From Dokdonella immobilis (GTDB taxonomy: Bacteria; Pseudomonadota; Gammaproteobacteria; Xanthomonadales; Rhodanobacteraceae): a stretch of 64,000 nucleotides of DNA. Each line of letters begins with the position of its first letter. Position 1 is the first letter of the stretch. The notes below the pieces were generated by a model. That model saw only the letters and a program-made list of their open reading frames with translations, had not been told where the DNA came from and ran no database searches. The position numbers and the translations under genes were made by a program. Shown here piece after piece: positions 650 to 18,410 of this stretch. The stretch covers positions 1 through 64,000 of the forward strand of contig NZ_FOVF01000003.1 in the NCBI RefSeq assembly GCF_900115085.1, in the 5' to 3' direction.

Positions 650-747
650 GGCTGCTTCGCCCCATTTTTCGCTTTGTTGCGGACAGGACGAATGATAGGC
701 TGTGGGGATTTTCTTCTACAGCTACGTTAGCCCGCGCAGGAGCTAGT

Positions 748-1158
748 ATGGGCAGTCGCAAGTCGCCTTTGGCAGATTCCGTCGCCGACTACATTTCCGG
801 CCTTGAACCGCCGCTGCGGGAGGATGTCGAGGCATTGCGCCGCGCAATCCTTGCGTCAGCCCGCGGGATCGGGGAAGAGATCAAGTGGAACGCTCCTAGC
901 TTTTTTACCGGCGAGCACTTCGCCACCATGCGGCTGAACGGCAAGGTTCCGCTTCAGCTCATCCTGCACCTCGGCGTTAAGAAGAGTTCCATCGCCCGCG
1001 ATTCGATTGAGGATCCGGACGGTCTGCTGCAATGGTTGGGGCCGGATCGCGCTTGCATCAGCTTTCCAGCCTCCGGCACCGTTGCAACGCGGATTGCTTC
1101 GGTGCAACACATCGTCCGCCAGTGGGTGCAACATGTACCGGCTCGGGTCGCGGGCTAA
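748..1158 (+). CDS. DUF1801 family protein (136 aa)
   Basis: This small soluble protein has the features of the DUF1801/YdhG-like fold: an N-terminal helix (SVADYISGLEPPLREDVEAL), a central EEIKWNAPSFF block and a C-terminal segment with a conserved phenylalanine. The biochemical role of the family is unknown. The frame stays open far upstream, but the ATG at 748 has an AGGAG ribosome-binding site 6 bases ahead, so I use it. It lies just outside the right end of the transposase remnant and is followed by a gap before a cytochrome gene on the same strand. Confidence 0.75.
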   Translation: MGSRKSPLADSVADYISGLEPPLREDVEALRRAILASARGIGEEIKWNAPSFFTGEHFATMRLNGKVPLQLILHLGVKKSSIARDSIEDPDGLLQWLGPDRACISFPASGTVATRIASVQHIVRQWVQHVPARVAG

Positions 1159-1269
1159 GCCTTGCAGCACTGAAGCCCGGTAGCCATACGGGAAAGGGCC
1201 CCGTTGGCAAATCGCGATTGCCAGGCTCTAGACTGCGCCACCGGGTGTTGGGTCCATAGGGGGAGCGAC

Positions 1270-2166
1270 ATGCGCAGGCTGGTGAAGTGGCTGGTCCGTA
1301 TTGTGGTGGTCGTCGTCGTGGTGGTCGGGGTATTGCTCGCTGCGGTCTACGTGCTGAGCGAGCAGCGGATGGCGAAGGTCTATGCGATCGAGCCTGCGGT
1401 TCCCCCCGTTTCGAGCGATCCGGGCGCGGTCGAACGTGGTGCGCATGTCGCGGCGATCCGCGGTTGCCGGGATTGCCATGGCAGCGATATGGGCGGCGCG
1501 ACTTTCATCGATGATCCGCTGTTTGCGCGACTTTCCGGACCGAATCTGACGCCGGCGGGGCCTGGCGGAAAATTCAGCGACATGGACCTGGTTCGTGCCA
1601 TCCGTCATGGCGTCGGCAAGGAAGGGCGCCCGCTACTGTTCATGCCCTCGCAGGAATTCAGCCACCTGAGCGATCAGGACATGGGCGACCTGCTGGCCTA
1701 CCTGCACAGCGTGCCGGCAGTCGACAAGACGCCACCTGCGAACCGGGTGGGCCCCATTGGTCGCGCGTTGTTCGTGGCCGGGAAGGTGCCCCTGCTGCCA
1801 GCGGAAATCGTCGATCACGAAGCCAGGCCCGATCAACCCGTGGCCGGACCGACAGCAGCCTATGGCGCCTACCTTTCGTCGGCCTGCGTCGGTTGCCACG
1901 GCAAGGGACTTTCCGGCGGCCATATTCCGGGAACGCCGCCGTCCTGGCCGGATGCGGCAAACCTTACCCCGCACTCGAGCGGCCTGGCGGACTGGAGCGA
2001 AGCCGACTTCCGCACTGCGCTGCGCGAAGGTATAGCCCGCGGCGGACGCAAACTGCAGACGCAGTTCATGCCCGTCTCGGCGACCAAACACATGTCCGAT
2101 GAGGAGATCAGCGCGCTCTATGCGTTTCTGCACAGCCTGCCGTCCAAGCCGCACGGCCAGCACTGA
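1270..2166 (+). CDS. Membrane-anchored dihaem c-type cytochrome (298 aa)
   Basis: A hydrophobic valine-rich segment near residues 8-30 looks like an uncleaved signal anchor. The exported part carries two class I cytochrome c domains, each with one CXXCH haem site (CRDCH in the first half, CVGCH in the second) and later methionines as likely axial ligands. Such dihaem cytochromes pass electrons in the periplasm, often from alcohol or aldehyde dehydrogenases or to terminal oxidases. No dehydrogenase partner is adjacent, so the donor is unknown. The ATG at 1270 follows a GGGAG sequence. Confidence 0.85.
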   Translation: MRRLVKWLVRIVVVVVVVVGVLLAAVYVLSEQRMAKVYAIEPAVPPVSSDPGAVERGAHVAAIRGCRDCHGSDMGGATFIDDPLFARLSGPNLTPAGPGGKFSDMDLVRAIRHGVGKEGRPLLFMPSQEFSHLSDQDMGDLLAYLHSVPAVDKTPPANRVGPIGRALFVAGKVPLLPAEIVDHEARPDQPVAGPTAAYGAYLSSACVGCHGKGLSGGHIPGTPPSWPDAANLTPHSSGLADWSEADFRTALREGIARGGRKLQTQFMPVSATKHMSDEEISALYAFLHSLPSKPHGQH

Positions 2167-2292
2167 TTGCGGGTGCACCACGACCGGAGCACCATTGGCA
2201 GACCGTGCCGTGCCGCAGTAGCGGTCGGTCCATTGCCCGACGGCCCGGACCACGCATAGTCGCTACATTTCGAAATGAGAAGGAGCTTGCGC

Positions 2293-2769
2293 ATGAAATC
2301 CGCGATTCGTTCGTTCCTGTTCGTATTTGTTGCTTTACTTGCCGCGCACGCTGTGGCCGCGAAGCCGGTGGACGGTACCTATCGTGCCAATGGCCAGGAC
2401 GGCAAACTGGCCTTCGCGCTGGCCCTGGCCGGTGAACCATTCTCGGGCAACCCGACTACCAAGCTGGTCTTTACCGAGAAGGATGCCAGCGCTGACAAAC
2501 AGCCGGACTTCCACGCGGCTTTCGGCGATTTCGGCAATGCCCTGGTCATCACCCTGATGAAGGACAGCGATGGCTACAGCGTGATCGGCGCCGAGTTCGG
2601 GCACACCGCGCTCAAACACATGGGCGCCAGCGCGACCGGCATTCTCGAGGTGAAGAACGTCAAGATCGCCAATGGCCGGATCAGCGGCAAACTGGTTTCA
2701 GGGGCCGACGCCGACATCTTCGACGAGCCGATCAAGGTCGACCTCGCTTTCGATGTGAAACTGCCGTAA
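2293..2769 (+). CDS. Secreted hypothetical protein (158 aa)
   Basis: I do not recognise a named family. The N-terminus is a clear Sec signal peptide (a lysine/arginine start, a FLFVFVALLAA core and an AVAA cleavage region). The mature part has beta-rich, repeated short-strand character with no cysteines, and is probably a small periplasmic beta-sandwich or barrel. Two in-frame ATGs exist at 2275 and 2293. The AAGGAG at 2279-2284 sits correctly for the second, so I use 2293. Neighbours are a cytochrome upstream and a convergent acetyltransferase; neither suggests a function. Confidence 0.6.
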   Translation: MKSAIRSFLFVFVALLAAHAVAAKPVDGTYRANGQDGKLAFALALAGEPFSGNPTTKLVFTEKDASADKQPDFHAAFGDFGNALVITLMKDSDGYSVIGAEFGHTALKHMGASATGILEVKNVKIANGRISGKLVSGADADIFDEPIKVDLAFDVKLP

Positions 2770-2825
2770 GACCCGAAAGACAATCGACATGAGCGACCGG
2801 CCCGGATGCGGTGCCGCCCAGGCTC

Positions 2826-3578
2826 CTAGGCGTCGGCTGACTTTCGTCGCAGCGACCAGAAGTCGATGTTGCGGCGATGCGTGTAGCCGATGCGTTCGTA
2901 CAGCGAGATCGCGTGCGTGTTCTGGCGGCTGACATGCAGGAAGGGCGTGCGTCCGCGCCGCAGGTTGTCGTTGGTGAGCATGCCGAGCAGGCGTTGCGCC
3001 AGGCCCTGGCAGGTGAAGTCCGGATGCGTGCAGACCGCGCTGATTTCCTGGAACTCGTCGGTACCGAGTCGCTCGCCGATCATGGCTGCGAGGCGACCGT
3101 CCCGATAGATGCCGAAGTAGCGGCCCAGTTCCATGGTCCTGGAACGAAAAAAGTGCGGATAGACGAGGGCGGTCAAGGCCATGGCATCCTCGCGATGCGC
3201 GAGGCCGAGTTCGATGATGTCGGTTCCCTCGTCTAAATCGATCGGCGAGGTACGGATCATCTGGGTCAGGGGCTGGTCGATCTCGAGCTGCCATGCATCG
3301 GAGAGCGAAGCTGCCACGCCGAGCAGGTAGACGGTTTCGCCGCTGCCGACCAGCGCCTGGAGGTCGGCCTCGGCAACGCCCGCCGTGTCCGCGACGCCGA
3401 GAAAGGGTGCGTAGTCAGGCGGATAGCGTGCAGCCTTGCCGCTGCGAATCGAGATGTCGCGATGGCGGGACGCAAGCGAGGACCAGAATGGATTATCAAG
3501 TGCGTGTGTCAGCGTCGATTTCCTCTCGTGGTTGGCCGATTGAAATCCATCTGCGTGCTCGTTGCAAGCGATGGCCAA
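2826..3578 (-). CDS. GNAT family N-acetyltransferase (FR47-like)
   Basis: The C-terminal half has the GNAT core: a strand of the EISAVCTHPDF type followed by the acetyl-CoA loop QGLAQRLLG, then LHVSRQNTHAISLYERIGY, the usual C-terminal alpha/beta unit. The N-terminal half resembles the FR47-like GNAT subgroup, whose substrates are mostly unknown. The frame opens at a TTG at 3578 with no good ribosome-binding site. A GAGAGGAAA sequence lies just before an in-frame CTG near 3512, so translation may start there and the protein would be about 22 residues shorter. Confidence 0.75.
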   Translation of the reverse strand: MAIACNEHADGFQSANHERKSTLTHALDNPFWSSLASRHRDISIRSGKAARYPPDYAPFLGVADTAGVAEADLQALVGSGETVYLLGVAASLSDAWQLEIDQPLTQMIRTSPIDLDEGTDIIELGLAHREDAMALTALVYPHFFRSRTMELGRYFGIYRDGRLAAMIGERLGTDEFQEISAVCTHPDFTCQGLAQRLLGMLTNDNLRRGRTPFLHVSRQNTHAISLYERIGYTHRRNIDFWSLRRKSADA

Positions 3579-3716
3579 AGCATGGCATTTGCCGTCGCCA
3601 CGGCCGCTGCCATGCCTAACGATGCGTGCGAGCCGGGCCGGTCGGGGGCCGCATCCATCGGTCCGGTTCGGAGCCGTGCCCGGCGATTCCCCGAGGCATG
3701 CGCAGGGCAGGTTCGC

Positions 3717-4181
3717 TCAGGCCGGCCACTTGAGCACCATCATCGCCACGGCGAGCGACAAGGGCAGCAGGGCCAGCCAGCCCAGCACGTGCCATCGGCG
3801 CAACATCGCTTGCGTCGCCTGAAAGTCGGCGTTCGCGTCGGTGGCAGCAACGATTTGCCGTTGCAGCGGCGACAGGGCCATGCCGAACAAGAGCCCGGAC
3901 AGGCCGAACATCAAGATCGCGCCGAGGATCCAGCCGACTGACAGCATCTTGAGGCCGCCGCTGACCGCCGCAGCCACGCCACCGCCGACGATCAGCACGA
4001 TGCCGGGCATCGTGAACCATCGATCGGCGCGGATGATGCCGCGCATGGCATGGCCGATCATTCGCGCGTCGCCGGTGCTTTCCGCGTGCGCCACCCAGAA
4101 CAGGCCGAGCGAGGCATTGCCGAGGAACACGACCACGGCCACGACCTGGAGGAGCTTGAACAGCGCATAAATCGCAATCAT
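3717..4181 (-). CDS. DUF2269-like integral membrane protein (154 aa)
   Basis: Four hydrophobic segments (about residues 5-27, 55-75, 83-105 and 130-150) make this a small inner-membrane protein. The pattern of an N-terminal helix with FLGN, an HAMRGIIRADRWFTMPG loop and a GWILGAILMFGLSG helix fits the DUF2269 family, whose role is unknown. A GGGGAA ribosome-binding site lies about 7 bases before the ATG at 4181. It sits alone between the GNAT gene and the IS630 remnant. Confidence 0.7.
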   Translation of the reverse strand: MIAIYALFKLLQVVAVVVFLGNASLGLFWVAHAESTGDARMIGHAMRGIIRADRWFTMPGIVLIVGGGVAAAVSGGLKMLSVGWILGAILMFGLSGLLFGMALSPLQRQIVAATDANADFQATQAMLRRWHVLGWLALLPLSLAVAMMVLKWPA

Positions 4182-4361
4182 CGAAATTCCCCGGGTTGGC
4201 AGGATTTCACTCTAGTCCGCCGGGTTGCGCGGCAAGAAGATGCCGGTCGTCACCCATTTCGGCGAATCGACGGTCGCGTGCCAGCTGTTGGTCTACCGAT
4301 CTGCCCGACCCTCAGCGAGGACGATCGCTGGCAAGGCTATTGCGGTGTCTCAAGAGTAAGG

Positions 4362-4745
4362 CTAACGAATCTTGGCCGCTGCCCGCGCCACGGAAGCCGG
4401 GATGGCGTCTGCACTCTTGGGCCAAATGAAAGACTTGGGTTCGGCGTTGTTTTCGATGTAGAACTAGTGGACTGCTCCAGCCCTGATACGCTGATGTGCG
4501 TGCCGCGCTTGATCCACTTCTCGCTGATTTCTCCGAAGAACCGCTCGACCAGATTGAGCCATGAAGCCGAGGTCGGCGTGAAGTGCACGTGGTAGCGCGG
4601 TCGTGCGGCGAACCAGGCGCGCATTTTGTCGGTTTCATGTGTTCCGTAGTTGTCCATGATCAGGTGGATATCCTGTTCTGCCGGGACTTGCGCATCGATG
4701 GTCTTGAGGAACTGCAGGAACTCCGCCCTCCGATGCCGTCGCTTG
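4362..4745 (-). pseudogene. IS630-family transposase remnant, 5'-truncated and frameshifted
   Basis: The segment encodes the C-terminal catalytic part of an IS630/Tc1-type transposase: [12 protein letters not shown], then [12 protein letters not shown] (second Asp of the DDE triad), then [19 protein letters not shown] (final Glu). Near 4460 the frame breaks after SVSGLEQ. The normal tail continues in another frame ([20 protein letters not shown]) to a stop at 4362-4364. The N-terminal DNA-binding half and first catalytic Asp are missing upstream of about 4745. The 240 bases beyond, up to 4984, hold no gene I recognise. Confidence 0.8.
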
Positions 4746-4983
4746 AGCAGCCCGAGGAACGGTACGCGCAATGCGTTTGCTGTTCCGCAGCAGTTCAAGC
4801 CACATTTTGCCGCGTTTGTCGACACGTCCAAACCGGAGTTGCCAGGAAACCGACGCTGCACATTCGCAATGAATGCCGAGGGTCAGAAAAACCGTGGCTT
4901 TCGCGCCGCGCCAGTGGCAGCGGACGCGATACCGGTCTGGACGATGCACCTGCAGCAAGGAGCCCGGGTCGGTTGGTCTGTCA

Positions 4984-6273
4984 TCAGCGTTCGGCGATCA
5001 TCTCCGCGGCGTCCAGTCCCCAGGCGGGGATCTTGCCGTCGTTGGCGAAGAACAGGTCGCGGTAGCGCATCTTCAGGAAATACGGCACGCGGCCGAGCTT
5101 GAGCTTCTGGATGTCGCCGCCGAACCAGCTGTTGGAGTGGATCCAGAATGCCTTGCCATCGCCCATGTCGCCGATGCACAGCACCTCGGGCTTCAGCGGC
5201 TGGTCCGCTTTTTCCGGGTCGACCTTGCCGAAGGCCTTGCCCAGCTGCAGTCCGACGATGTCCGATTGCTGGTGTCCGATCGCGCCGAGCTTGGGCACCG
5301 TGACCGCCGCGCAGTCGCCGCAGGCGAAGACTTCCGGGTAGTCGGGATTCTGCATGCACAGGTTGGTGCGGATGAAGCCTTCGGAATCGCTGACCGGCAG
5401 GCCCTTGAGGAAATCGTGGGCGCGCCAGTCGGGGAAGATGATCTTCAGTTCGGCCTGCAGGAAACGGCCATCGGCGAACTCGATGCCTTCGGCGGTGAGC
5501 CGCGTGATGTCCTGCGTGTCGTGCCAGTAGTTCAAGCCCATCCTGGTGGCCAGATCGAGCAGTTGCTTGACCACTTCCTCGCCGGCGTCCTCGGCGATCA
5601 TCTTTCCCGGCGTGAACACGGTGATCTTGTTCGGCTCGCCCTTGTCATTGTCCTTGAGCCAGGTCGCCATCGACATCATCACTTCCACCGGCGGCCCCTC
5701 GCAGGCAGCCAGCGCACGCGGGATCGAGCCGCCCGGATAAGGGACCAGGCCGTCGGCGCCGTCGCCTTGGTGGAAGCGCGCCGAGCCGATCGCGATCGGC
5801 CCGCCGCGGTATTCGCGCTTCAGGTACTGGCGCAGCTTTTCGCCGTGGTAGATGTCGGTGACGGTATGCCCGAAATCGACGAATCCTTCGATCCTGTCGA
5901 AGGCGAGCCGGTTGCCCAGCGCGAAGACCACGTAGTCGTAGGCTTCGACATGCGCCTCCGCGCCGCCACGCTCGGCCGGAACGAAGGTCACGGTCCGCTT
6001 GTCGACATCGACGCCAGTGACCTCGCCATGGATGAAGTCGATGTCCTCCCTGGCCAGGACGGGGACGATATCCAGGCGCTGGTGGAGTGCCGGGTTCCGA
6101 TCCTCGAACACGTCGGAGGAAATGTTGGGGATGTAGAGCAGGTAGCTCTTCTTGTCGATCACCGTGATGCGCGCGGCGTCACCGAGGTAATGGCGGATCT
6201 TCTGCGCGCAAGCGAGGCCCGCGAAATTCCCGCCAAGGACGAGGACGTGTGGTTTTTTGTCGAACATGGGCAT
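4984..6273 (-). CDS. FAD-dependent pyridine nucleotide-disulphide oxidoreductase, sulfide:quinone reductase-like
   Basis: This 429-residue flavoprotein has an N-terminal dinucleotide-binding turn (VLVLGGNFAGLACAQ), the mid-domain YDYVVFALGN strand and the C-terminal FAD motif FACGDCAAV. Together these place it in the NDH-2/sulfide:quinone oxidoreductase superfamily. Such enzymes are peripheral membrane proteins that reduce quinone. Its place at the end of a persulfide-detoxification cluster favours sulfide as substrate. The classical SQR active-site cysteine pattern is not obvious, though, so an NADH dehydrogenase-like role remains possible. A GGAG site precedes the ATG at 6273, three bases after the end of the broken 5'-nucleotidase gene, which suggests coupling. 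Confidence 0.75.
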   Translation of the reverse strand: MPMFDKKPHVLVLGGNFAGLACAQKIRHYLGDAARITVIDKKSYLLYIPNISSDVFEDRNPALHQRLDIVPVLAREDIDFIHGEVTGVDVDKRTVTFVPAERGGAEAHVEAYDYVVFALGNRLAFDRIEGFVDFGHTVTDIYHGEKLRQYLKREYRGGPIAIGSARFHQGDGADGLVPYPGGSIPRALAACEGPPVEVMMSMATWLKDNDKGEPNKITVFTPGKMIAEDAGEEVVKQLLDLATRMGLNYWHDTQDITRLTAEGIEFADGRFLQAELKIIFPDWRAHDFLKGLPVSDSEGFIRTNLCMQNPDYPEVFACGDCAAVTVPKLGAIGHQQSDIVGLQLGKAFGKVDPEKADQPLKPEVLCIGDMGDGKAFWIHSNSWFGGDIQKLKLGRVPYFLKMRYRDLFFANDGKIPAWGLDAAEMIAER

Positions 6274-6276
6274 TGA

Positions 6277-7739
6277 TCATTCTCCGGTATTTGGGCTTTC
6301 CTGGATTTCCAGGACGGATTCGGCCGTGCGCGGCCCCCCGCCACGGACGCTCGAGAAGCGCACGCAGCGCGTCGATCGCATGCACGCCAAGTCGCTTGCG
6401 ATGTCGGCCAAGGCGCCCTCACGCCCTGTTCGGTGACAAAGGCGCAGCGGTAGACGCGCTCTTCCGCGACGGGCTCGCCTTAGACGAACAGGCGGTCGAT
6501 GCGATGATCCTGCGGATTCTCCGCCCCGAGATAGACCTGCACGCCCGCCATTCGTTCCACGTAGCCGCCCATCTGCTGGTAGGGGTCGGCGGCGAAGGTG
6601 CGCTCGAGGTTGGCCTCGATCATCTGGCGGATCTCCGCGCCGGTCAGCTCGGTGGTGGAGATCGGCGGATTCATCGGCACGATGTTCCAAAGGTCGCCGA
6701 GCATGATCGAGCCGACCGGGATCGGCGCACCGTAGCGCCAGTCGTTGGAGAACGCGACCTTGGTCACGGCGGCCTCGGCGATGGCCGCCACCAGCAGGTC
6801 ATCCATCGGCGCGTGCGACATGGCGTAGCGATGCAGCGGCACGTCGGTTCGACCGATCGCTTCCGCCATGGCGTTGCGTTCGGCGTCGAGTGTGGCATCG
6901 ACCAGTGCTGCGACATGGCGGTTGGGATCGATCGACTGGTCGATCGCCACCAGTGAGTGGTGATGGTTGACGATGCGTCCCGCCTCCACCTCGACGTCGA
7001 GGCGGCCAACGAACGCCCAATGGTGCCAGGACTGGAGAATGATCGCGCCGTTGACCACGATCGCCCTATCCATGCGGTTGTGGGTATGCCCGCTGACCAG
7101 GATGTCGATGCCGGCGACCTCGCCTGCAAGCTTCACGTCCTGCGGGAAACCGAGATGCGAAAGCACGATGACCAGTTCGGCGCCTTCCTCCTCGCGCACG
7201 TGGCGGATCCAGCGCGGCAGTTCGACGTTGCCGATGGTGAAATAAAGGCCCTCGCTGAACGACGGCGGCATGGACTTGTCGATGATCGGGCAGGCCAGCC
7301 CGATCATCGGGATGCGCAATCCGGCGCGGGTCACCATGCGCCAGGGCGGCAGGAAGAGCTGGTCGTCGTGCTTGCGGTGGCAGTTGACCGCCACCATCGG
7401 ATTGTCGAGATGCTCGGCGATCCGCTGCACGCCGTCCGGTTCATAGGCGAACTCCCAATGCACTGCCATCGCATCGAAGGCGAGTGCGTTCATTGTGGGC
7501 ACCAGCGCCAAGCCTTTGCTGGCCACCGCCACGTGGGTGCCATGGATGGTGTCGCCGTTGTCCAGGGTCACCACCGTGCCAGGCCGCTCCGCGCGGACGC
7601 GGTCGAACAGGCCAGCGATGCGCGCCCGGCCGCCCAGCGTCGCGAACCGTCATTCGCCGTTCTCGCCGCGCACCATTTCCGGATGCGGCTCGAGATACCT
7701 GTGGAGATCGTTGAGTTGAAGCACGGTCAGGCAGGGCAT
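6277..7739 (-). pseudogene. Bifunctional metallophosphatase/5'-nucleotidase gene broken by several frame changes
   Basis: The start (ATG at 7739, GGAG site 5 bases before) encodes MPCLTVLQLNDLHRYLEPHP, with the metal-binding ND-x-H motif of 5'-nucleotidases. That frame stops at about 7650. The next frame continues at once with RFATLGGRARIAGLFDRV and runs through NGDTIHG, SHLGFPQD and SGHTHNRMD, all metallophosphatase landmarks, into the 5_nucleotid_C domain. An in-frame TAA lies after DRLFV (about 6480). The sequence continues with GEPVAEERVYRCAFVTEQGV and then shifts again to LGVHAIDALRALLERPWRG. Either this is a decaying gene or the assembly carries several errors here. Confidence 0.8.
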
Positions 7740-7842
7740 GGCGTCTCCAGTCGGTTGTGCCGGCATCTGGCGACACGCCGTGCTGGTCCCTATTCGTGCA
7801 CTGCGCGGGAGGTCGCTGCCTGCGCAACCCATGCGCAAGCGC

Positions 7843-8055
7843 TCAGGTGCGTTCGCTCCGGGGGCACGAGGAGATCCCCAGTAGCGCATATGCCGGGCAC
7901 ATGCCGATCAGGCTGGTCAGCAGGAATGCGACGGCGACGATGCCCAGCACGATCGCCAGCGTGCCACTCATCAGACCCGTGAAATATGCGACGACGATCC
8001 CGATGGCAATGATGACGCGAATGGTCCTGTCGACCGTACCCATATTTTTTTTCAT
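7843..8055 (-). CDS. DUF2892 (YgaP-type) small membrane protein (70 aa)
   Basis: A short protein with a DRTIRVIIAIGIVVAYFTG helix and a second GIVAVAFLLTSLIGMCPAYALLG helix. This is the two-helix DUF2892 domain, also found as the membrane tail of the sulfurtransferase YgaP. It commonly accompanies rhodanese, persulfide-dioxygenase and peroxiredoxin genes in sulfur-stress operons, which fits its place here. Conserved cysteines follow the second helix (CPAYALLGISSC). The ATG at 8055 lies downstream of the peroxiredoxin gene on the same strand. Confidence 0.85.
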   Translation of the reverse strand: MKKNMGTVDRTIRVIIAIGIVVAYFTGLMSGTLAIVLGIVAVAFLLTSLIGMCPAYALLGISSCPRSERT

Positions 8056-8202
8056 GAAAGTTGCTCCGCTGAGGGTTGCTGGTCACTGGCTGCTTTCAGC
8101 AAATGAAACAGTGAGACATGCCGCGGCTGAATGCAGCGTGATATTCAACGGCGGGTCGGCGAAGGCCGAGGGTTGCCCTGACCTTCGCACAGCCCCCCGG
8201 GC

Positions 8203-8829
8203 TTATAGCGAAGTCATGCGCAGGTAGGAGCGGATCTCGTCCCACCCTTGCGGGAACAACGTCTTGGCCTCGTCATTGCTGATCGACGGCGGGATGATCA
8301 CCTTGTCGCCCGGGCGCCAGTCGGCCGGGGTGGCAACGCGGCTTTTGTCCGAGGTCTGCAGCGCATCGATCACGCGCAGGATCTCGTCGAAATTGCGCCC
8401 CACCGACATCGGATAGGTCATGGTTAGTCGGATCTTCTTCTGCGGATCGATGATGAACACCGAACGCACCGCGGCGGTGTCGCTCTGCCCCGGATGGATC
8501 ATGCCGTACAGCTCGGCGACCTTGCGGTCGGCATCGGCGACGATCGGGAACTCCAGCGTAGTGTTCTGGGTGGCGTCGACGTCCTTGATCCATTTCAGGT
8601 GCTCTTCGACCGAGTCGGTCGACAGGCCCAGCGGCTTGACATTGCGCCTGGCGAACTCCGGGGCCAGCTGCGCGGTGCGTCCCATCTCGGTGGTGCACAC
8701 CGGCGTGAAGTCCGCCGGATGACTGAAAAAGAATACCCAGGAATCGCCGGCCCACTGGTGGAAATCGATGTCGCCGGTGGTCGTCGCGATCTGGAAGTTC
8801 GGTGCGGTGTCGCTGAGTTTCAGGCTCAT
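8203..8829 (-). CDS. 1-Cys peroxiredoxin (Prx6/AhpC-TSA family)
   Basis: The 208-residue protein has the Prx6-type peroxidatic site (SHPADFTPVCTTEMG) and the catalytic arginine region DATQNTTLEFPIV. Its long C-terminal domain (ATPADWRPGDKVIIPP) is typical of the Prx6 branch, which keeps only one redox cysteine. It reduces hydroperoxides, or possibly polysulfides in this setting, in the cytoplasm. Two ATGs lie six bases apart. The AAAGGA sequence is correctly spaced only for the second, so I start at 8829. It belongs to the leftward BigR-controlled cluster. Confidence 0.9.
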   Translation of the reverse strand: MSLKLSDTAPNFQIATTTGDIDFHQWAGDSWVFFFSHPADFTPVCTTEMGRTAQLAPEFARRNVKPLGLSTDSVEEHLKWIKDVDATQNTTLEFPIVADADRKVAELYGMIHPGQSDTAAVRSVFIIDPQKKIRLTMTYPMSVGRNFDEILRVIDALQTSDKSRVATPADWRPGDKVIIPPSISNDEAKTLFPQGWDEIRSYLRMTSL

Positions 8830-8961
8830 TTGCATTTCCTTTGGTTGGTGGTGAAGGGAAAGTTGTGTTTCAAGGCAATCGCCGGCTCGATGGCGGGACA
8901 GAGAATCGAACCTTTCGATGGCTTCGATCGTGCTCTACATCGTAGGATCGCGACGAAAGCA

Positions 8962-9021
8962 TCAGGATGGCTGCCAGCATGGCCATGCCGCCGATCTTGA
9001 AGTGGGGAACGCGTGTGTCAT
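8962..9021 (-). other. Possible 19-codon ORF with a strong ribosome-binding site
   Basis: A near-perfect Shine-Dalgarno sequence (GAGGAGG, 9025-9031) stands just before an ATG at 9021 that opens a 19-codon frame. The peptide looks featureless. In another frame the same bases encode a hydrophobic stretch (KIGGMAMLAAILMLSS), so this may be the frameshifted remnant of a small membrane-protein gene between the persulfide dioxygenase and peroxiredoxin genes. A leader peptide is the other reading. Confidence 0.3.
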
Positions 9022-9060
9022 GGGACCTCCTCGTGCAATGGTCTGTTCCGGGTCATCCGT

Positions 9061-9810
9061 TCAGCCTTGCCGGCTTGCGGCCATGTCGCTGCAGTACTCG
9101 CGCAGGTGCTCGGGCAGGTCGTCGGGACACACGCCACAGCGCTTGTTGCCGGGAACCGCATAATCGATGAACTTCGGGTAAGGCAGGTCCAGGTTTTCCA
9201 TCAGCCGCACGAAATCCTCCAGCGTGCGGTCCCCGCCCAGGCGCGGATTGCGCTGCTTCTCCTGCGCGATGCTTGAGACCCGGCGTTCCTTGTAATCATG
9301 TGCCGGATAAACGAGGGTATCGCCAGGCAGCGCGAACAACCGGCCGCGCACGCTCTCGTACAGCGCGCGCGAATCGCCGCTCTGGAAATCGGTACGCCCG
9401 CAACCGTCGATCAACAGCGCATCACCGGTGAACACGCGGTCGCCCGCGCCGATGGCGAAATGATTGTCGGTGTGGCCGGGCGTGTGCATCGGGTCGAGCC
9501 GCAGTCCACCAATCTGCAGCGGCACTCCATCCTCGAAGCCGACATCGGTGCATGGCAGCGCATCGAGCGCGGGCGTGGCGATGCGGCTGCCGACCTCACG
9601 CTTGAGCAGCGAGGCGGAAGTGATGTGGTCGGCGTGGATATGCGTGTCGATGGTCATCACCAGCCGCAGGCCGAGACCGTTGACCACATCGAGGTCGCGC
9701 TGCCACGTGGGCATGACCGGGTCGATTAGCACAGCTTCGCCCGTGTCGGCGCAGCCGAGCAGATAGGTGTAGGTCGAGGATACGGGCTCGAACATCTGGC
9801 GGAAAATCAT
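9061..9810 (-). CDS. MBL-fold persulfide dioxygenase, ETHE1/Blh-like (249 aa)
   Basis: The zinc/iron-binding metallo-beta-lactamase signature THIHADH lies at residues 56-62, followed by the HTPGHT and TGDALLIDGCGRTDFQ motifs diagnostic of ETHE1-type persulfide dioxygenases. These oxidise glutathione persulfide to sulfite and glutathione using non-haem iron. The start overlaps the end of the DUF442 gene by four bases (ATGA), so the two are translationally coupled. In other bacteria the two domains are fused as Blh. A sulfite exporter gene upstream completes a plausible pathway. Confidence 0.92.
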   Translation of the reverse strand: MIFRQMFEPVSSTYTYLLGCADTGEAVLIDPVMPTWQRDLDVVNGLGLRLVMTIDTHIHADHITSASLLKREVGSRIATPALDALPCTDVGFEDGVPLQIGGLRLDPMHTPGHTDNHFAIGAGDRVFTGDALLIDGCGRTDFQSGDSRALYESVRGRLFALPGDTLVYPAHDYKERRVSSIAQEKQRNPRLGGDRTLEDFVRLMENLDLPYPKFIDYAVPGNKRCGVCPDDLPEHLREYCSDMAASRQG

Positions 9811-10247
9811 CGCTGCGCTCCATCGTGCTGGGCGAGCATGACTACCGCCGGTTCCAGCGCCTTCAGGCCGGCCTCGCGGCCGCGTTCAAGCGCGCTGTGC
9901 AGCGGGCAACCGCGGTTGAACACCTCGTCCAGAGCGACAATCGCGCCCACCCGGTTGGCACTGGCGCAGTGGATCAGTACGCCGCCCGCCCGGCGCGCCT
10001 CATCGAGCGCTCGCCCAAATTGGCGCACGCGCTCGCGGTCGAGGTCGGCAGCGCCGGTGATCGGCAGTGGCACGTAGTGCAACCCGAGCCGGGCGGCTTC
10101 CGCGGCTTCATCGTACTCCACGGGCTCGTCTGGTGCGCGCAGGTTGATCACGGTGCGCACGCCTGCGCGCGCGAGCCCGGCAAGTTGCGCAGGCGTTGGC
10201 TGTCCGCCCGCGTAATGGCCGTCAGCGTAGGGGAAAGGTGCGTCCAT
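9807..10247 (-). CDS. DUF442 protein-tyrosine-phosphatase-like protein (Blh N-terminal domain type)
   Basis: This 146-residue protein has a cysteine-phosphatase loop, HCASANRVGA (Cys94 to Arg99, C-x5-R-like but shortened), and the early GGQPTPAQL motif of the DUF442/Blh family. In Blh proteins this domain precedes an ETHE1-type domain. Here it is separate, but the genes overlap by four bases and are probably made in equal amounts. It may act on persulfidated proteins or act as a sulfurtransferase-like partner; the exact reaction is not established. AAAGGAGA precedes the ATG. Confidence 0.88.
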   Translation of the reverse strand: MDAPFPYADGHYAGGQPTPAQLAGLARAGVRTVINLRAPDEPVEYDEAAEAARLGLHYVPLPITGAADLDRERVRQFGRALDEARRAGGVLIHCASANRVGAIVALDEVFNRGCPLHSALERGREAGLKALEPAVVMLAQHDGAQR

Positions 10248-10288
10248 GGGAGTCTCCTTTGAAAGATGGTGTGGTGGAGAACGACGGG

Positions 10289-11074
10289 TCAGATCCAGCC
10301 GAGCTCGCCTGCGGTGCGATACAGCATGTAAAGCGCGACGGCGATGATCAGGCCGGCGAACACCACGTTGAGCGCGCCCTTGCGGCCGGCCAGGTGCGTG
10401 GCCAAGCGGGTGCCGAACAGGCTGCCGACCGCACCGCCGCCGATGAATACCGCCGCGAGCGACCAGGCGACCAGCCCGGAGCTCGCGTAGCTCAACGCGG
10501 TGGTCAGCCCGAAGGCCGTCACCGCGAGCAACGACGAGCCGACCGCGAAAAGGATCGGCATGCCGGTCGACGCAATAAGCCCCGGCACCACCAGGAAGCC
10601 GCCGCCGATACCGAAAAAACCCGACAGCAGGCCGGTAGCCGCGCCCGACCCCAGCAGTTTCGGCGCGTTGCCGCGGTTTAGAACCACCGTCGGATCACCT
10701 TCGCGCCCGCGCGAGCGGAACATCATGCCGGCAACCACGAGCATCAACAGCGCGAACAGTGCAAGCAGTTTCTGTCCGTCTATCGCCTTGCCGAGCATTG
10801 CCCCGAACCATGCTCCGAGCACGCCGGTAGTGGCGAACGCTGCGGCGCAACGCCACTTCACGTTGCGTTTGCGGGCATGGTTGGTCAGACCGATCAGTGC
10901 GTTGGCTGCGACCGCGAGTGCACTGGTGCCGATCGCAACATGCGGGTCGTGAATGCCGACCAGGTAGACCATGAGGGGCACCGCGAGGATGGAGCCGCCG
11001 CCGCCGACCAGCCCGAGGGTAAAGCCGACGACGCCGCCGGACAGGGCGCCCATCACGAACTGGAGCGCGGTCAT
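10289..11074 (-). CDS. TauE/SafE family sulfite/sulfonate exporter (261 aa)
   Basis: The protein is almost entirely hydrophobic, with about eight predicted membrane helices. It has the two glycine-rich repeats typical of TauE/SafE (GLVGGGGSILAVPLMVYLVG near the N-terminus and SGFFGIGGGFLVVPGL in the middle). It probably exports sulfite or another sulfur oxyanion made by the downstream persulfide dioxygenase. The ATG at 11074 overlaps the repressor's stop codon (ATGA), with a GGAGG site 8 bases upstream inside the repressor gene. It is the second gene of the operon. Confidence 0.9.
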   Translation of the reverse strand: MTALQFVMGALSGGVVGFTLGLVGGGGSILAVPLMVYLVGIHDPHVAIGTSALAVAANALIGLTNHARKRNVKWRCAAAFATTGVLGAWFGAMLGKAIDGQKLLALFALLMLVVAGMMFRSRGREGDPTVVLNRGNAPKLLGSGAATGLLSGFFGIGGGFLVVPGLIASTGMPILFAVGSSLLAVTAFGLTTALSYASSGLVAWSLAAVFIGGGAVGSLFGTRLATHLAGRKGALNVVFAGLIIAVALYMLYRTAGELGWI

Positions 11075-11418
11075 CGATCGGCCTCCGGGTCGCCGCAGTA
11101 GGTACCATAGAGCACGGCGAGCACGCTGGCCGCCGGACCCTCCGCCAGCGAATAGTGGATCGTCTGTGCCTCGCGGCGTGTGCTCACGAGATTCCTCTCG
11201 CGCAGCACCGCCAGATGCTGCGACAGCGCGGACATGCTCAAGCCGGTCAGCGGCTGCAGCTCGCCGACCGAGGCTTCCCCCTCGACCAGCTGGCACAGCA
11301 CCAGCAGGCGCGCTGGATGGGCCAGCGTTTTGAGTAGCGTCGCGGCTTCATCGGCGTGGCTTGCCATGTCCTCTGGCGAGGGCAGGGCGCGGGCGGTCTT
11401 CTTTGTTGCGTGGGTCAT
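11071..11418 (-). CDS. bigR: ArsR-family persulfide-responsive repressor, BigR/SqrR-like
   Basis: The winged-helix ArsR core includes the recognition helix MSALSQHLAVLRERNLV and wing TRREAQTIHYSL. Counted from the ATG at 11418, cysteines fall at positions 42 (LLVLCQLVEGE) and 108 (YGTYCGDPE). These are the positions of the dithiol pair that forms a polysulfide bridge in BigR/SqrR regulators. The frame opens further upstream at 11505, but that segment overlaps the promoter and does not look like protein. The gene heads the sulfur operon and probably represses itself and the genes below until persulfide is present. Confidence 0.9.
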   Translation of the reverse strand: MTHATKKTARALPSPEDMASHADEAATLLKTLAHPARLLVLCQLVEGEASVGELQPLTGLSMSALSQHLAVLRERNLVSTRREAQTIHYSLAEGPAASVLAVLYGTYCGDPEADR

Positions 11419-11464
11419 GAAAGTGTGGCCTGGGGAATGCCAGATGAAGAATCGCGGGAATTTT

Positions 11465-11493
11465 ATATTAGAAAGATCTAAACTAAACTGCAA
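11465..11493 (-). promoter_or_regulatory. Promoter with overlapping inverted-repeat operator for the bigR-led operon
   Basis: Reading leftwards, TTGCAG (11493-11488) and TAATAT (11470-11465) are separated by exactly 17 bases, a good sigma-70 arrangement. Between and overlapping them lies an AT-rich inverted repeat, TTAGA-N4-TCTAA (11468-11481), in an otherwise GC-rich region. That is where an ArsR-family dimer would block polymerase. The predicted transcript starts about 40 bases before the repressor ATG. Confidence 0.65.
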
Positions 11494-11561
11494 TGGGCTA
11501 AGCATGAGCCCGCAAGTCCAGCCGCGGCCACGCTGATATCTATTGATCCAGTCCTTAACCC

Positions 11562-11683
11562 GGACTCTTCATGACATACACGCGCGCTCGCTTGCGCCTT
11601 GAATCCACGTGACTTTCCGCTCATTCGGCGATGGGGACCGCTACCCCCCCTCAATCGCAAAAAACCGCGTGGATCCAAGGTCC
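11562..11683. repeat. Copy 1 of a ~121-bp hairpin-forming intergenic repeat
   Basis: This segment aligns along its whole length with 17933-18053. Its outer arms, 11597-11611 and 11666-11680, are inverted repeats (15 bases, two mismatches) that flank a shared interior containing CCGCTCATTCGGCGAT and CCTCAATCGC. It lies in the 300-base space between the bigR promoter and the gene-remnant scar. I see no gene in that space. Confidence 0.75.
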
Positions 11684-11813
11684 TGCGCGATCATCACGCG
11701 TATTCCTGAATCGCCCGGGCTAGCAGTTTCAGGCAGCATTTGGCACGCGCGGGTTGGGGAAACAGGTTTTGACGCAGTCCGGTTCATTGCGGGCGCACTA
11801 GCCCACGGGCTTC

Positions 11814-11945
11814 ATCGGGAAGTACCAGTCGGTGGTATCCAGTCCTTCTTGCATTCGTGCTTTCAGCTAGTCGGCGGACTTCGCTGCCCCGACCAACACC
11901 TTTTCGCCCGGCTGCCATCCCTCCGGTGTCGAACTGACTGCCATC
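11814..11945 (-). pseudogene. C-terminal fragment of an AhpC/TSA peroxiredoxin with an internal stop
   Basis: One frame encodes TPEGWQPGEKVLVGAAKSAD, a TAG stop, then LKARMQEGLDTTDWYFPMKP. This is the last ~45 residues of a two-domain peroxiredoxin of the kind that ends in a TDWYF motif. The rest of the gene is missing. At about 11945 the sequence switches directly into a metallo-beta-lactamase remnant, so a deletion joined two neighbouring genes. The intact peroxiredoxin at 8203-8829 has a different C-terminus and is not the source of this piece. Confidence 0.75.
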
Positions 11946-12326
11946 GCGCTGAAACTCGGTGCCTTCCTCAAGCACCTTGCCAATGGTCTGCTGGACTTCG
12001 ACGATTCGTTCGCCAATGCCGATCCGGCCACCCAACTGCTGCTGCAAATAGGGTGGTGCCGAGAGGTGATCGGCGTGGACGTGGGTCTCGAACAGCCTGT
12101 CGACCTCCAGACCGCGATCCGCCACGTGCCGGATGAGCCGCCCGGCATGATCGAATGAAGTACGGCCGCCGGCGCAGTCCAGATCGATTACCGGATCGAT
12201 GATGGCGCAAGCCTTGCTAGCCGGGTCCTCCACGACATGGCTGTTGGTGTTGGTGGATTGATCGAAGCGGCCCGGCACCAATGGCTGGTTGACTGAAGGT
12301 TTGTCACGGGATGGTGTCGGATGCAT
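11940..12326 (-). pseudogene. N-terminal fragment of an MBL-fold hydrolase (persulfide dioxygenase-like)
   Basis: From about 12326 leftwards the frame encodes RFDQSTNTNSHVVEDPASKA, then the metal-binding LFETHVHADHLSAPPYLQ motif, then IVEVQQTIGKVLEEGTEFQ. This matches the first ~125 residues of MBL-fold hydrolases of the ETHE1-like group that accompany peroxiredoxins and LysR regulators. The homology stops at GSQFD and the peroxiredoxin tail follows. All later metal ligands (HTPGHT, the second Asp and His) are lost, so the product cannot be functional. Confidence 0.8.
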
Positions 12327-12522
12327 CGAAGACCTCGGCTTGCAGTTTTTTCGTGGTCCACAGTGCGCCGGTTTGCTGAACATGTAAAACGAATTAATCT
12401 TATTGCTGTGATCGATTTATCCTATATATTTGCATGGGGTCCAGGCTCCCGCCCGGCGCACCCTCCACCGGACAGGTCACGCAGAAGCGCCCCCCGTTTG
12501 TTCCGCCCAATGGAAGTCTGGA

Positions 12523-13440
12523 ATGCCTCAGCTCCCCAACCTCCGCCACCTGAGGTTTCTGGTTGCCCTGCTGGAGCATCAGCATTTCGGCAAAGCCGCG
12601 GCTGCCTGCTTCGTCACTCAGTCGACGCTGAGCGCGGGTATTCGCGAACTGGAGTCGGCATTGGGAGTCAGCGTGGCCGAACGAACCAAGCGCTGCGTGG
12701 TCATCACGCCCTCGGGCCGCCGCATCGGCGAATACGCGCGCAAATTGCTCAAGGATGCAGAAGCCCTTGTGCAGGCTGCGAACGAAGAAGGCCTCCCGAT
12801 GTCGGGCACCTTCGATTTGGGGGTGATCCCCACCATAGCTCCGTTCCTGCTACCCCGCCTGGTGCCGGCTATCGGCAGGCGATTTCCTCGCTTGCGCCTG
12901 AATCTGCGTGAAGACACCACACAAAACCTGCTGGAGCGGATCAGCGACGGACGCCTGGACATAGCGCTGATGGCGTTTCCGTATGAAACCGGGGCGCTCA
13001 AGACCTTCATGCTGTTCGAGGACGCCTACCGGTATGCCTCGGCAAATGCGCCGCGCAGCTGCCAGCGTGTCACGGCGTCCGATCTTGATGCGCAGAACCT
13101 GCTGCTGCTGGAACACAGCCACTGCCTGCATAGCCACGCCCTTCCGTTGTTGGAGCAGGCGGCACGGTCCGAGGGAGCAAGCTTCACCTCCACCAGCCTG
13201 CACACGTTGGCGGCCATGGTCGGCGAAGGCTTGGGCGCGACCCTGCTTCCCGACCTGGCGATCAACGGCGGCATACTTCAGGGCCATGATGTGGTGGTGA
13301 AGCCGCTGCGCGATGCGAACGCGCGGACGATCGGCCTGTGTTGGCGCAACGCCTCGGCACGCTCCGAATCGTTCAGCGTCTTCGGAGAGTTTCTGCGTGG
13401 ATGGGCGCTTGAGACAATCAAGCCTTGGTCAGAAGCATGA
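12523..13440 (+). CDS. OxyR-like LysR-family regulator lacking the resolving cysteine
   Basis: The 305-residue protein has a LysR helix-turn-helix (HFGKAAAACFVTQSTLSAGI, residues 21-40) and an OxyR-type effector domain (GVIPTIAPFLLPRL near 100). The peroxidatic cysteine is present in LLLEHSHCLHSHAL (Cys201). The resolving cysteine expected nine residues later is a leucine, so peroxide sensing by an intramolecular disulphide is not possible. It may sense differently or act as a constitutive regulator of the neighbouring redox genes. The ATG at 12523 has only a weak GGA site. The AT-rich 12390-12430 region upstream probably holds its promoter. Confidence 0.85.
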   Translation: MPQLPNLRHLRFLVALLEHQHFGKAAAACFVTQSTLSAGIRELESALGVSVAERTKRCVVITPSGRRIGEYARKLLKDAEALVQAANEEGLPMSGTFDLGVIPTIAPFLLPRLVPAIGRRFPRLRLNLREDTTQNLLERISDGRLDIALMAFPYETGALKTFMLFEDAYRYASANAPRSCQRVTASDLDAQNLLLLEHSHCLHSHALPLLEQAARSEGASFTSTSLHTLAAMVGEGLGATLLPDLAINGGILQGHDVVVKPLRDANARTIGLCWRNASARSESFSVFGEFLRGWALETIKPWSEA

Positions 13441-13671
13441 GCAGCGCAGCGCTGTCGGTTTGGTTCTGCGTCAGTCCGAGCGTGGCGACTGAAGGGCCTG
13501 GAGGGCGAGGTTAGCGCGCCAATCGCCTCGGGCCGATCGCAGCGCGGTTGTCAACCCACCGCATTGCACCGCGGAACGCAAGCGAGAGGGCCCCTGAACC
13601 ACCCGTGGTTGAGCAGCTACGTGCAGCATGGACGCGACGGTGCCGACCGGCACGACGGCGTGAGGACTGCA

Positions 13672-14250
13672 CTACCGACCCAATTCCAGCCACAGACTGA
13701 CCCGATCCCAGGTGTGCACATCCTCCATGGCCAGGATGCCCTCAAGCATGCGCCGGACGGTCGGGTTGTCGTTGCCGAGATACGCGATCATTTCGCGGCA
13801 GCTGTGGATGGCGGCACGCTCGGCGACCAGGTTCTGCTTGATCATGTCGAGCAGGCCCGATCCTTCGACGTACTCCGAATGGCTGCGCGACAGCAAGCAG
13901 TCCTTCGGGAGGCGGGTTCGGCTCGCCCCCGAGTGCACGATGTGTTGCGCAACCTGGTCGGCGCGCAACTGCGCTTCGTTGGCGTGCCGCAGAAACACCT
14001 GCGCGACGCCCTGGGCATTGATCCCGGTCGCCATGAAGAAGTGCCGCTTGTAGCGCGGCACGGAGAAGATCTCGGTGGCAAGCGCCTCGTTCAGGATGCC
14101 AACCACCGCCTTCCGGTCGGCGGCATAGCCCGGCGTAACGGCAGCTTGTCCGATGTGCCGCCTCGCTCGTTCCCGCAATGCTTTCACGTCTGTAAGAGAG
14201 CGCTTGCTTGCCCCTGGTTCCACCTCATGGCCCGGGTGCTCGTGAGTCAA
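13672..14250 (-). CDS. Ferritin-like (bacterioferritin-type) protein with altered metal site
   Basis: The 192-residue sequence follows a bacterioferritin-like family (AVTPGYAADRKAVVGILNEALATE ... SRSHSEYVEG ... MIKQNLVAERAAIHS ... GILAMEDVHTWD). Glu60 and the C-terminal E-x2-H are kept. The second-helix motif that is normally EEQGH reads EAQLR (92-96), so one Glu and the His ligand are replaced. Iron oxidation is therefore doubtful, and storage, shell formation or DNA binding remain possible. The apparent start is a TTG at 14250 with a weak site. It is in the same orientation as katG and about 100 bases downstream of it. Confidence 0.75.
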   Translation of the reverse strand: MTHEHPGHEVEPGASKRSLTDVKALRERARRHIGQAAVTPGYAADRKAVVGILNEALATEIFSVPRYKRHFFMATGINAQGVAQVFLRHANEAQLRADQVAQHIVHSGASRTRLPKDCLLSRSHSEYVEGSGLLDMIKQNLVAERAAIHSCREMIAYLGNDNPTVRRMLEGILAMEDVHTWDRVSLWLELGR

Positions 14251-14349
14251 TCCGTAGACTCACCGTTAGGTGCATGGAAGTCGCCATTGCGTCTTGCGGC
14301 GCAATGACGACCGACGCTCGTCGCGAGTGGAATCTCTTGACCGACGGGA

Positions 14350-17562
<3,213 letters not shown>

Positions 17563-17621
17563 TTGGTTGGCATAATGATTTAATAATCTTTTGTCTGCTT
17601 TTACACGAATCGCTGCCGATC

Positions 17622-17936
17622 CTAGTATTGGACCGGGTCAGTTCGTCCTGGATCAGGCGGTACAGGGTCGGCACACAGCCCGGCGCAATGACCCACTCGG
17701 TACCGGCATCAAACGAAGAATGCGCCGAGATGAAGGTGGCCAGGAACGCCGGTGCCGGATTGTTCATGTACGCGCCGTTCCAATGCATCGCATTGGCGGC
17801 GCTTCTGGCGAGGGCGAGCAGGGCGCGGATGGCGAAACCGGTCGCCAGCCAGCCGTGGCGGTCGAATTGCGATCTGGCCAGGAACAGGGCGCTGGCGCCG
17901 AGGCCGATACAAATGACGGACGCCTGGACTACTCGG
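17622..17936 (-). pseudogene. Fragment of an integral membrane sensor gene
   Basis: One leftward frame is open over about 105 codons and reads like membrane helices: CIGLGASALFLARSQFDRHG, ATGFAIRALLALARSAAN, then MHWNGAYMNNPAPAFLATF and VPTLYRLIQDELTRSNTR. The final segment resembles the linker that precedes GGDEF domains in some membrane diguanylate cyclases. The frame has no start, and after SNTR no recognisable domain follows. It ends exactly where the hairpin repeat begins. I regard it as a gene remnant; its family is uncertain. Confidence 0.4.
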
Positions 17937-18053
17937 ACTATTCATGAATCCCACCCGCGCTCACTTGCCCCTTGATTCCACACGGCTTTCCGCTCATTCG
18001 GCGATAGAGCCCGCTATCCCTCAATCGCGAAGAGCCGTGTGAAACCAAGGTCC
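17933..18053. repeat. Copy 2 of the ~121-bp hairpin-forming intergenic repeat
   Basis: It aligns with 11562-11683, including CGGACTNTTCATGA at one end and CCAAGGTCC at the other. The inverted arms 17970-17987 and 18033-18050 pair over 18 positions with two mismatches. Several differences from copy 1 occur on both arms and keep pairing. The inner GATAG...CTATC may form a second small hairpin. Confidence 0.75.
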
Positions 18054-18410
18054 ACCCGTTCCCCCTCCGGGCCGGGCGGCATCCAGGGCCGCAGGTCTCG
18101 ATCCGGCGCTGTATCGCCTGTCCGCGGCGCGATTCGCTTCCGCATACCGGAGAGTAGATTGCCGGCCCCGGTTGGCGTCGGCCAGGTGAAGACAGGAAGC
18201 CAGTTCGCGGGTCCGTGAAAACGCCGCTGATCCACCCTGTTTGCAGGACTGTGAACGGCATCACATGCGGGTATGTCCCTGCAGGGTCAGCCTTGTCACT
18301 TGATGTCCATGTGTGTCGCGGGTCCAGTCGCCGCTGACGGCACTATCGCGATCCGGAGGTGGCGCGACCCTTGCATTGACGGGTGCGTCGACCTGAATCG
18401 ATGCACCCCT
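18054..18410. other. Intergenic stretch with no recognisable gene
   Basis: These 357 bases between the hairpin repeat and the GGDEF/EAL-like gene contain only short overlapping frames without family resemblance or good ribosome-binding sites. A frame open from 18273 joins the next gene, but its first 46 codons are cysteine- and arginine-rich in a way unlike protein. I see no RNA gene. Confidence 0.5.

Follow-up and report, generated by a model that had tools for sequence, protein, structure and literature searches.

On the minus strand of a 64,000-nucleotide stretch of the Dokdonella immobilis genome (contig NZ_FOVF01000003.1, positions 1 to 64,000; hereafter the window), eight genes within 4984-11418 can be read as a BigR-controlled cluster for sulfide and persulfide detoxification that was most likely transferred, was assembled from separately moving modules, and has lost one of these modules; the probability of this reading is put at about 0.7. 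The genes follow one another in the order bigR, tauE, DUF442, persulfide dioxygenase (PDO), 1-Cys peroxiredoxin (Prx), DUF2892, a broken SoxB-like gene, and a flavoprotein resembling sulfide:quinone oxidoreductase (SQR) (Table 1).

Families were assigned to the window genes using Pfam and NCBIfam. The regulator is an ArsR repressor whose closest solved structure is BigR (3pqj, 6.5e-25), with Cys42 and Cys108 aligned with both BigR cysteines; this agrees with the dithiol repressor proposed in an earlier note on this DNA. Its score of 99.7 bits against the NCBI BigR cut-off of 155 (NF040642) makes it, by sequence, BigR-type and not a BigR equivalog. The DUF442 protein passes the PF04273 cut-off (28 bits against 26.1) and carries an HCASANR loop (read by eye); PF22741, a phosphatase-fold family, matches better (6.6e-09), and the matches to TIGR01244 (4e-09) and NF040641 (8.5e-11) are each below cut-off. 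The structural matches of the dioxygenase include 8zbd (2.5e-86), 4ysb (2.3e-69), 5ve3 (6.1e-66), and ETHE1 itself (4chl, 2.2e-64), and the metal-site motifs HIHADH, TPGHT, TGDALL, and PAHDY are all present. The peroxiredoxin exceeds the cut-off of NF009668 (232.5 bits against 211).

A BigR-type dithiol repressor, DUF442 and ETHE1 activities, and a sulfite exporter are also the components of the bigR operon as described for Xylella and Agrobacterium (PMC5823870). According to that description, the two repressor cysteines become joined by a disulfide in response to persulfide or polysulfide, DUF442 acts as a sulfurtransferase, and the ETHE1 domain oxidizes glutathione persulfide to sulfite, which is then exported (PMC5823870). 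The window differs in that the DUF442 and dioxygenase domains are on two separate genes, not one, and in the addition of the SQR-like flavoprotein, the 1-Cys peroxiredoxin, and the dead SoxB-like gene. The predicted content, namely, the DUF442 and ETHE1-type pair, TauE, and an SQR-like flavoprotein with redox cysteines, would fit the sulfide-to-sulfite pathway suggested in the earlier note.

Table 1. Features of the window and, in the last rows (L numbers), genes found near intact compact SoxB-like genes
Feature	Position or locus	Strand	Basis or remark
bigR, ArsR-family repressor, 115 aa, Cys42 and Cys108	11071..11418	-	NF040642 BigR 7.2e-29
tauE, TauE/SafE sulfite exporter family	10289..11074	-	PF01925 5.8e-49
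DUF442 sulfurtransferase (stand-alone N-half of Blh)	9807..10247	-	PF04273 2.9e-06
Persulfide dioxygenase, ETHE1 type (stand-alone C-half of Blh)	9061..9810	-	PDB matches and motifs
1-Cys peroxiredoxin (Prx6 type)	8203..8835	-	PF00578 7.5e-31, PF10417 3.4e-14
DUF2892/YgaP-like membrane protein, 70 aa	7843..8055	-	PF11127 8.8e-22
soxB-like pseudogene (annotation name would be 5'-nucleotidase)	6290..7739	-	TIGR04486, SoxB 2wdc
In-frame TGA, pseudogene codon 30	7650..7652	-	
In-frame TAA in soxB-like pseudogene	6480..6482	-	
Frame change in soxB-like pseudogene, frame -2 to -3	6414..6415	-	similarity to intact relative
Type V-like SQR flavoprotein, 429 aa, Cys191/Cys366	4984..6273	-	match to 3h8i/3h8l
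Partial DDE transposase, downstream edge of sulfur genes	4337..4861	-	PF13358 DDE_3 1.1e-15, profile 39-142 of 146
Second, decayed Blh-type dioxygenase remnant, upstream of bigR	11784..12326	-	NF040641 4.5e-31, positions 139-260 of 423
Segment absent from one congener at corresponding place	4182..18359		left border is one short match
DsrE	L014		
Dioxygenase-like rhodanese fusion and sulfur transporter	L015		
Clusters with dioxygenase, YeeE/YedE, TauE, DsrE	L016, L017		
BigR-like regulator and peroxiredoxin pieces	L018		
Cytochromes c with SoxA/TsdA domain, beside or near the gene	L019 10402-12011, L136 7378-9125, L137 1067-2119		
DsrE, in addition	L137		
Rhodanese, DsrE, YeeE, MBL-fold genes	L020		as annotated
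MBL-fold, TusA, DsrE genes	L134, L135		as annotated

The flavoprotein at the end of the run matches the Acidianus SQR (3h8i/3h8l) over residues 9-399, nearly its full length (8.6e-44, phmmer). Among the SQR types I to VI (PMC9666304), the Acidianus enzyme is described as type V with the redox pair C178 and C350 (PMC8551704), which align with Cys191 and Cys366; these are the only invariant cysteines in the window protein and 10 orthologues (11/11; 55-65% identity). The window protein differs from the Acidianus ambivalens enzyme in being bacterial and diverged and in lying within a bigR-type cluster. Orthologues were collected at E 1e-40 from eight other genomes in a class sample of 369 and one more in a phylum sample of 398; together with one Thioclava plasmid, they give 10 loci. 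When compared with nine others (one truncated sequence was left out), the window flavoprotein is changed at 15 of 151 otherwise invariant columns, once nonconservatively, and its orthologues, by the same test, at 1-10 columns, with 0-5 nonconservative changes. Thus, unlike those of the SoxB-like gene described below, its changes are nearly all mild.

Genes for TauE, DUF442, the dioxygenase, and the SoxB-like protein were found by tblastn in none of the 10 orthologue loci, an absence that is only partial because three of the contigs are short (8-12 kb) and short proteins can escape tblastn. A peroxiredoxin is present in one locus (L092) and a weak (35%) BigR-like match in another (L097). The flavoprotein orthologues therefore stand apart from the other cluster genes, which makes the cluster a mosaic, and the view of the earlier note that the whole run is one unit does not extend to a conserved one. 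Two of nine orthologues, both in the same class as the window, have a sulfur oxygenase reductase directly upstream (L091 8634-9608 and L092 8119-9108; PF07682 2.8e-141 and 3.1e-142), and DUF1641 occurs in two of the four downstream neighbours tested (L095 and L098). These neighbours would suit an SQR relative with another job, for example as a partner of sulfur oxygenase reductase in handling sulfur or polysulfide, as would the score of 60 bits, against a cut-off of 525, with the sole NCBI SQR model matched. Such a role is unlikely, given the similarity to the Acidianus SQR along residues 9-399 and a redox pair kept in every orthologue.

The bigR/tauE and DUF442/PDO overlaps are exactly 4 bp, as the earlier note had stated, and the genes that it listed farther downstream are all present on the same strand, the name nucleotidase aside. 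The remaining junctions are gaps of 41 bp (tauE-DUF442), 225 bp (PDO-Prx), 147 bp (Prx-DUF2892), 103 bp (DUF2892-broken gene), and 16 bp (broken gene-flavoprotein). A simple scan of 4200-12450 returned no sigma-70-type promoters (1.5 in shuffles) and four terminator-like sites (5.8 in shuffles), none of them in the gaps; a repeat search upstream of bigR (11415-11560) found no inverted repeat of at least 10. The two longest gaps, 225 and 147 bp, about which the earlier note says nothing, make it uncertain that the run is a single transcript. Its genes might instead form two or three transcription units, the BigR-type regulator governing bigR-tauE-DUF442-PDO while Prx and/or DUF2892-flavoprotein are controlled in another way; this would accommodate both gaps, the divergent orientation of Prx and dioxygenase in two near-identical related loci, and the different company kept by the flavoprotein orthologues. 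Conversely, all eight genes share one strand, the gaps hold no terminator-like site, and the flavoprotein starts only 16 bp past the pseudogene; separate units are a serious alternative at somewhat less than even odds.

The module that has been lost is represented by the broken gene. From its start codon at 7739, it can be aligned with an intact Novosphingobium plasmid protein through 7739-6414 in one frame (65% identity) and through 6415-6347 in a second frame (48% identity over 23 residues), so that the stretch matched to this relative is 7739-6347. The gene is a pseudogene by its lesions, a TGA, a TAA, and a frame change, and the erosion of conserved residues matches: 15 of 110 columns that are invariant in six other sequences are changed, 8 of them nonconservatively, compared with 2-17 changed columns and 0-5 nonconservative changes in the six intact sequences. 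This erosion test, for which a single copy stood for two near-identical sphingomonad ones, is indicative only, as a single genome carries the dead copy. Recoding, by selenocysteine or readthrough, was rejected because the TGA is joined by the TAA and the frame change. That the gene is nevertheless alive, the stops being read through, the C-terminal 364 codons making a working protein, or the breaks being assembly errors, is very improbable. The long open part does have a coding-like base composition, and at the TGA site a sense codon stands in both of the closest intact relatives (by eye); against this stand three separate lesions, the lack of the N-terminal ND.H motif of the clade in the 364-aa part, and nonconservative changes at residues invariant in the clade.

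The break noted earlier is thus real, and the identity given to the gene, a 5'-nucleotidase, is not. The best family match of the 364-aa open part is SoxB (TIGR04486, 2.8e-73; 247 bits, below the equivalog cut-off of 550), with the next model at 93 bits, and not a nucleotidase of the UshA or CD73 type. Likewise, the best solved structure is SoxB (2wdc, 1.5e-30), with nucleotidases at 5.1e-17 and weaker. A SoxB motif of the HWEF type is present (AVHWEFAYEP), and the sole Pfam match is PF02872.

Intact relatives were read at 12 loci, two from genome contigs and the ten best plasmid matches; the plasmid collection favours mobile clusters, and two of the loci (L016 and L017) are 99% identical. The proteins form a compact clade of about 480 aa that lack some 42 residues of SoxB. 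They are apparently leaderless, as ND.H, the first motif, starts within residues 9-15 in 10 of 11 compact proteins, the exception (L019) being annotated from a later start. Between ND.H and the DNGD-type motif lie 47-49 residues in the seven proteins (of 11) in which both could be located by pattern, compared with 89-91 in all 24 measurable proteins out of 29 from SoxB loci, many of which begin with a twin-arginine-like stretch; three more SoxB proteins gave 89, 91, and 92. HWEF or HWDF occurs in 9 of the 11, and NWDY or NWDF occurs in two from Bacillota. SoxB (TIGR04486) was the best model for all nine intact relatives tested, at 301-342 bits, again below 550, compared with 662 bits for a 409-aa piece of a true SoxB. 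The clade thus shares with SoxB its best-scoring family and the HWEF motif and differs from it in the missing leader, the halved spacing, and the score.

A tree of 31 sequences places SoxB in a clade of its own (100/100), with the compact clade as a separate neighbour (99.8/100 without the two Bacillota members and 85/90 with them); the window part falls together with the genes from Novosphingobium and Bacteriovorax (100/100). At E 1e-40, the Novosphingobium protein finds matches in 59 of the 398 genomes of the phylum sample, including that of the window; all matches other than the window's own are at 37% identity or less, which makes the close clade scarce and patchily distributed in this sample. 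AlphaFold2 modelling of the intact Bacteriovorax relative together with the Verrucomicrobia one reached a mean pLDDT of 54.6, with most of residues 295-484 below 50. One compact protein (L016 8836-10278) matches the PHROG family phrog_19584 (7.4e-29). The broken gene thus belongs to a little-known branch of SoxB that is probably cytoplasmic.

At 11 of the 12 intact loci, sulfur or persulfide genes are found in the flanks, which extend about 6-9 kb on either side, and the SoxB-like gene is therefore at home in the window cluster; its supposed oddity in the earlier note falls away, as this is a sulfur gene whose relatives occupy such clusters. DsrE is found in seven loci (L014, L016, L017, L020, L134, L135, and L137) and TusA in two (L134 and L135); no sulfur or persulfide gene was found within the fetched flanks of L138. 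BigR-like regulators stand near the SoxB-like gene in three loci (L016, L017, and L018), two of which also hold a close TauE (64%). Gene order in relatives thus gives a mixed picture of how far these genes accompany bigR, the three SoxB-like loci speaking for it and the flavoprotein loci, with their one weak BigR-like match, against it.

Queries with SoxY and SoxZ found nothing in the 12 compact loci or in the window; the same queries gave matches at both SoxB loci that served as positive controls, one of them the locus from which the queries had been taken. A SoxY family search of the Dokdonella genome was also negative and was positive in four of four SoxB-bearing genomes. The SoxB genes of G740, G720, G550, and G675 are about 2 kb from a SoxY match (4/4 tested), in sharp contrast to the compact clade. 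SoxA/TsdA-type cytochromes are present in 3 of the 12 loci, where they could possibly act as thiosulfate dehydrogenase partners, an arrangement that recalls the TsdA-SoxB pairing of Erythrobacter (PMC7608252); a SoxA/TsdA family search of the Dokdonella genome found none, although this search lacked a positive control. Sulfur genes were found at neither of two UshA-type control loci, a small control, and at two of three loci of haloarchaeal distant relatives; one true SoxB locus contains SoxZ and DsrE.

Two further sets of nucleotidase-annotated genes were encountered. Haloarchaeal plasmid genes of this name (L147 and L150; 26% identical) lie near DsrE, rhodanese, YeeE, or TauE genes and are perhaps a further SoxB-like lineage. 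A Pontibacter plasmid (L020 4997-11926) carries three such genes, 28, 44, and 23% identical to the window part, in one sulfur cluster, resembling the trio of Erythrobacter flavus 21-3 (D0Y83_01365, 01405, and 01435). The compact genes were likened to this trio by description: two of the three share the annotation name, and the genes are reported to carry a SoxB domain and to belong to a thiosulfate cluster that also holds TsdA and a dioxygenase (PMC7608252). In that account, deletion of one, 01365, almost abolished the sulfur globules formed from thiosulfate, and the authors infer that its product releases sulfate from tetrathionate; the other two could be deleted with the globules unaffected (PMC7608252). 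Neither "cytoplasm" nor "signal peptide" occurs in the main text of that paper (PMC7608252).

The broken gene might instead have been an ordinary nucleotide-scavenging 5'-nucleotidase, present by chance, with the shared fold creating a false sulfur lead. Both kinds of enzyme belong to the same superfamily, PF02872 is the only Pfam match, sulfur genes are missing around one of the 12 intact relatives (L138), and two of the three Erythrobacter genes are dispensable for sulfur globules. This explanation is nonetheless quite unlikely: SoxB outscores every other model about twofold or more in bits for the window fragment and all nine intact relatives tested, 11 of 12 intact loci compared with neither UshA-type control lie near sulfur or persulfide genes, and one of the Erythrobacter deletions did affect the globules.

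Several lines of evidence suggest that the gene set was probably acquired laterally. In a set of 98 relatives, no long match to the flavoprotein exceeds 28% identity, with short partial ones going up to 48%. For the dioxygenase, no match in these relatives exceeds 52%, and the best are in other families of the order. The SoxB-like gene has matches in 8 of 59 relatives, all at 32% or less, and thus no close orthologue among them. The DUF2269 protein to the left of the cluster (3720-4181) was searched in nine congeners and has a close copy in G004 (62%), with two others at 34% and 27%. In a 20-kb piece of G004 (L143), window 3717-4169 corresponds to 10088-10543 (70% DNA identity) and 18360-24631 to 13765-19995, with 3.2 kb of other genes between the two. 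Thus, a segment of about 14 kb, spanning the partial transposase, the sulfur genes, the decayed Blh-type remnant, and a LysR-ferritin-KatG-LysR set, is lacking in the one congener compared. Kilobases of sequence with 69-80% DNA identity make the right flank firm; for the left border there is a single gene, because window 1-3716 is unmatched in these 20 kb.

Within the same segment, 12430-17562 encodes a LysR regulator, a ferritin-like protein, a catalase-peroxidase, and a second LysR regulator, so that peroxide defence adjoins persulfide defence. The remnant at 11784-12326 looks like the deletion-fused leftover of a second persulfide module; its tail, in other frames, resembles the C terminus of a 1-Cys peroxiredoxin (by eye). 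Some part of window 4300-12200 is matched at 80-95% DNA identity by 12 plasmid records.

A number of these observations weigh against a transferred, BigR-controlled sulfide and persulfide cluster. The regulator scores below the BigR cut-off, and the 225- and 147-bp gaps may conceal separate promoters. Cys129 of the Acidianus SQR aligns with Thr in the window flavoprotein, which is also the most changed of the 10 compared at invariant columns (15, others 1-10), albeit conservatively; its orthologues are not beside the rest of the cluster, and it could have another role here. To the left, the segment is bounded by a single 454-bp match, its G+C content is inconspicuous, and the G+C profile gives no island signal. 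Finally, two of the three Erythrobacter SoxB-like genes proved deletable.

In the detoxification cluster as we read it, the type V-like SQR would oxidize sulfide at the membrane, with Cys191 and Cys366 carrying the sulfane chain and electrons passing to quinone; this addition would supply persulfide from sulfide. DUF442 may help to pass sulfane sulfur to a low-molecular thiol, the ETHE1-type dioxygenase would convert the persulfide to sulfite, and TauE would export the sulfite. The BigR-type repressor would free the operon once persulfide or polysulfide links its cysteines, with the peroxiredoxin and the DUF2892 membrane protein as putative accessories. Intact compact SoxB-type hydrolases most likely strip sulfate from thiosulfonate (S-SO3) groups and would supply the same route with persulfide from thiosulfate or tetrathionate, a branch that is dead in this genome. 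The surviving route, from sulfide through persulfide to sulfite export, is ordinary and already known.

The part worth following is the compact SoxB-like clade, the cluster being a mosaic of ordinary function. The database name "bifunctional metallophosphatase/5'-nucleotidase" conceals a distinct SoxB-like clade whose members accompany persulfide and thiosulfate genes and lack SoxYZ, the carrier whose bound thiosulfonate SoxB, with two manganese ions, is thought to act on (PMC5336275). Because neither SoxYZ nor a leader accompanies the clade, a cytoplasmic carrier is the natural guess; DsrE3A and TusA of one archaeon are described as forming Cys-S-thiosulfonates with tetrathionate (PMC4175335). 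We tentatively suggest, as a possibility that is well short of probable, that these genes, found on plasmids and in genomes of Pseudomonadota, Bacteroidota, Bacillota, Verrucomicrobia, and Bacteriovorax, encode a cytoplasmic counterpart of SoxB that removes sulfate from a DsrE- or TusA-cysteine or small-thiol thiosulfonate and leaves a persulfide for the dioxygenase. Equally tentatively, they would then form an intracellular, carrier-swapped Sox-like cycle, often on mobile DNA, of which the window would hold a fossil. If such cytoplasmic cleavage occurs, the use of thiosulfate and tetrathionate would be undercounted in genomes judged by soxB and soxYZ, and the compact genes make it testable which hydrolase, if any, acts on thiosulfonate carriers of the DsrE3A and TusA type.

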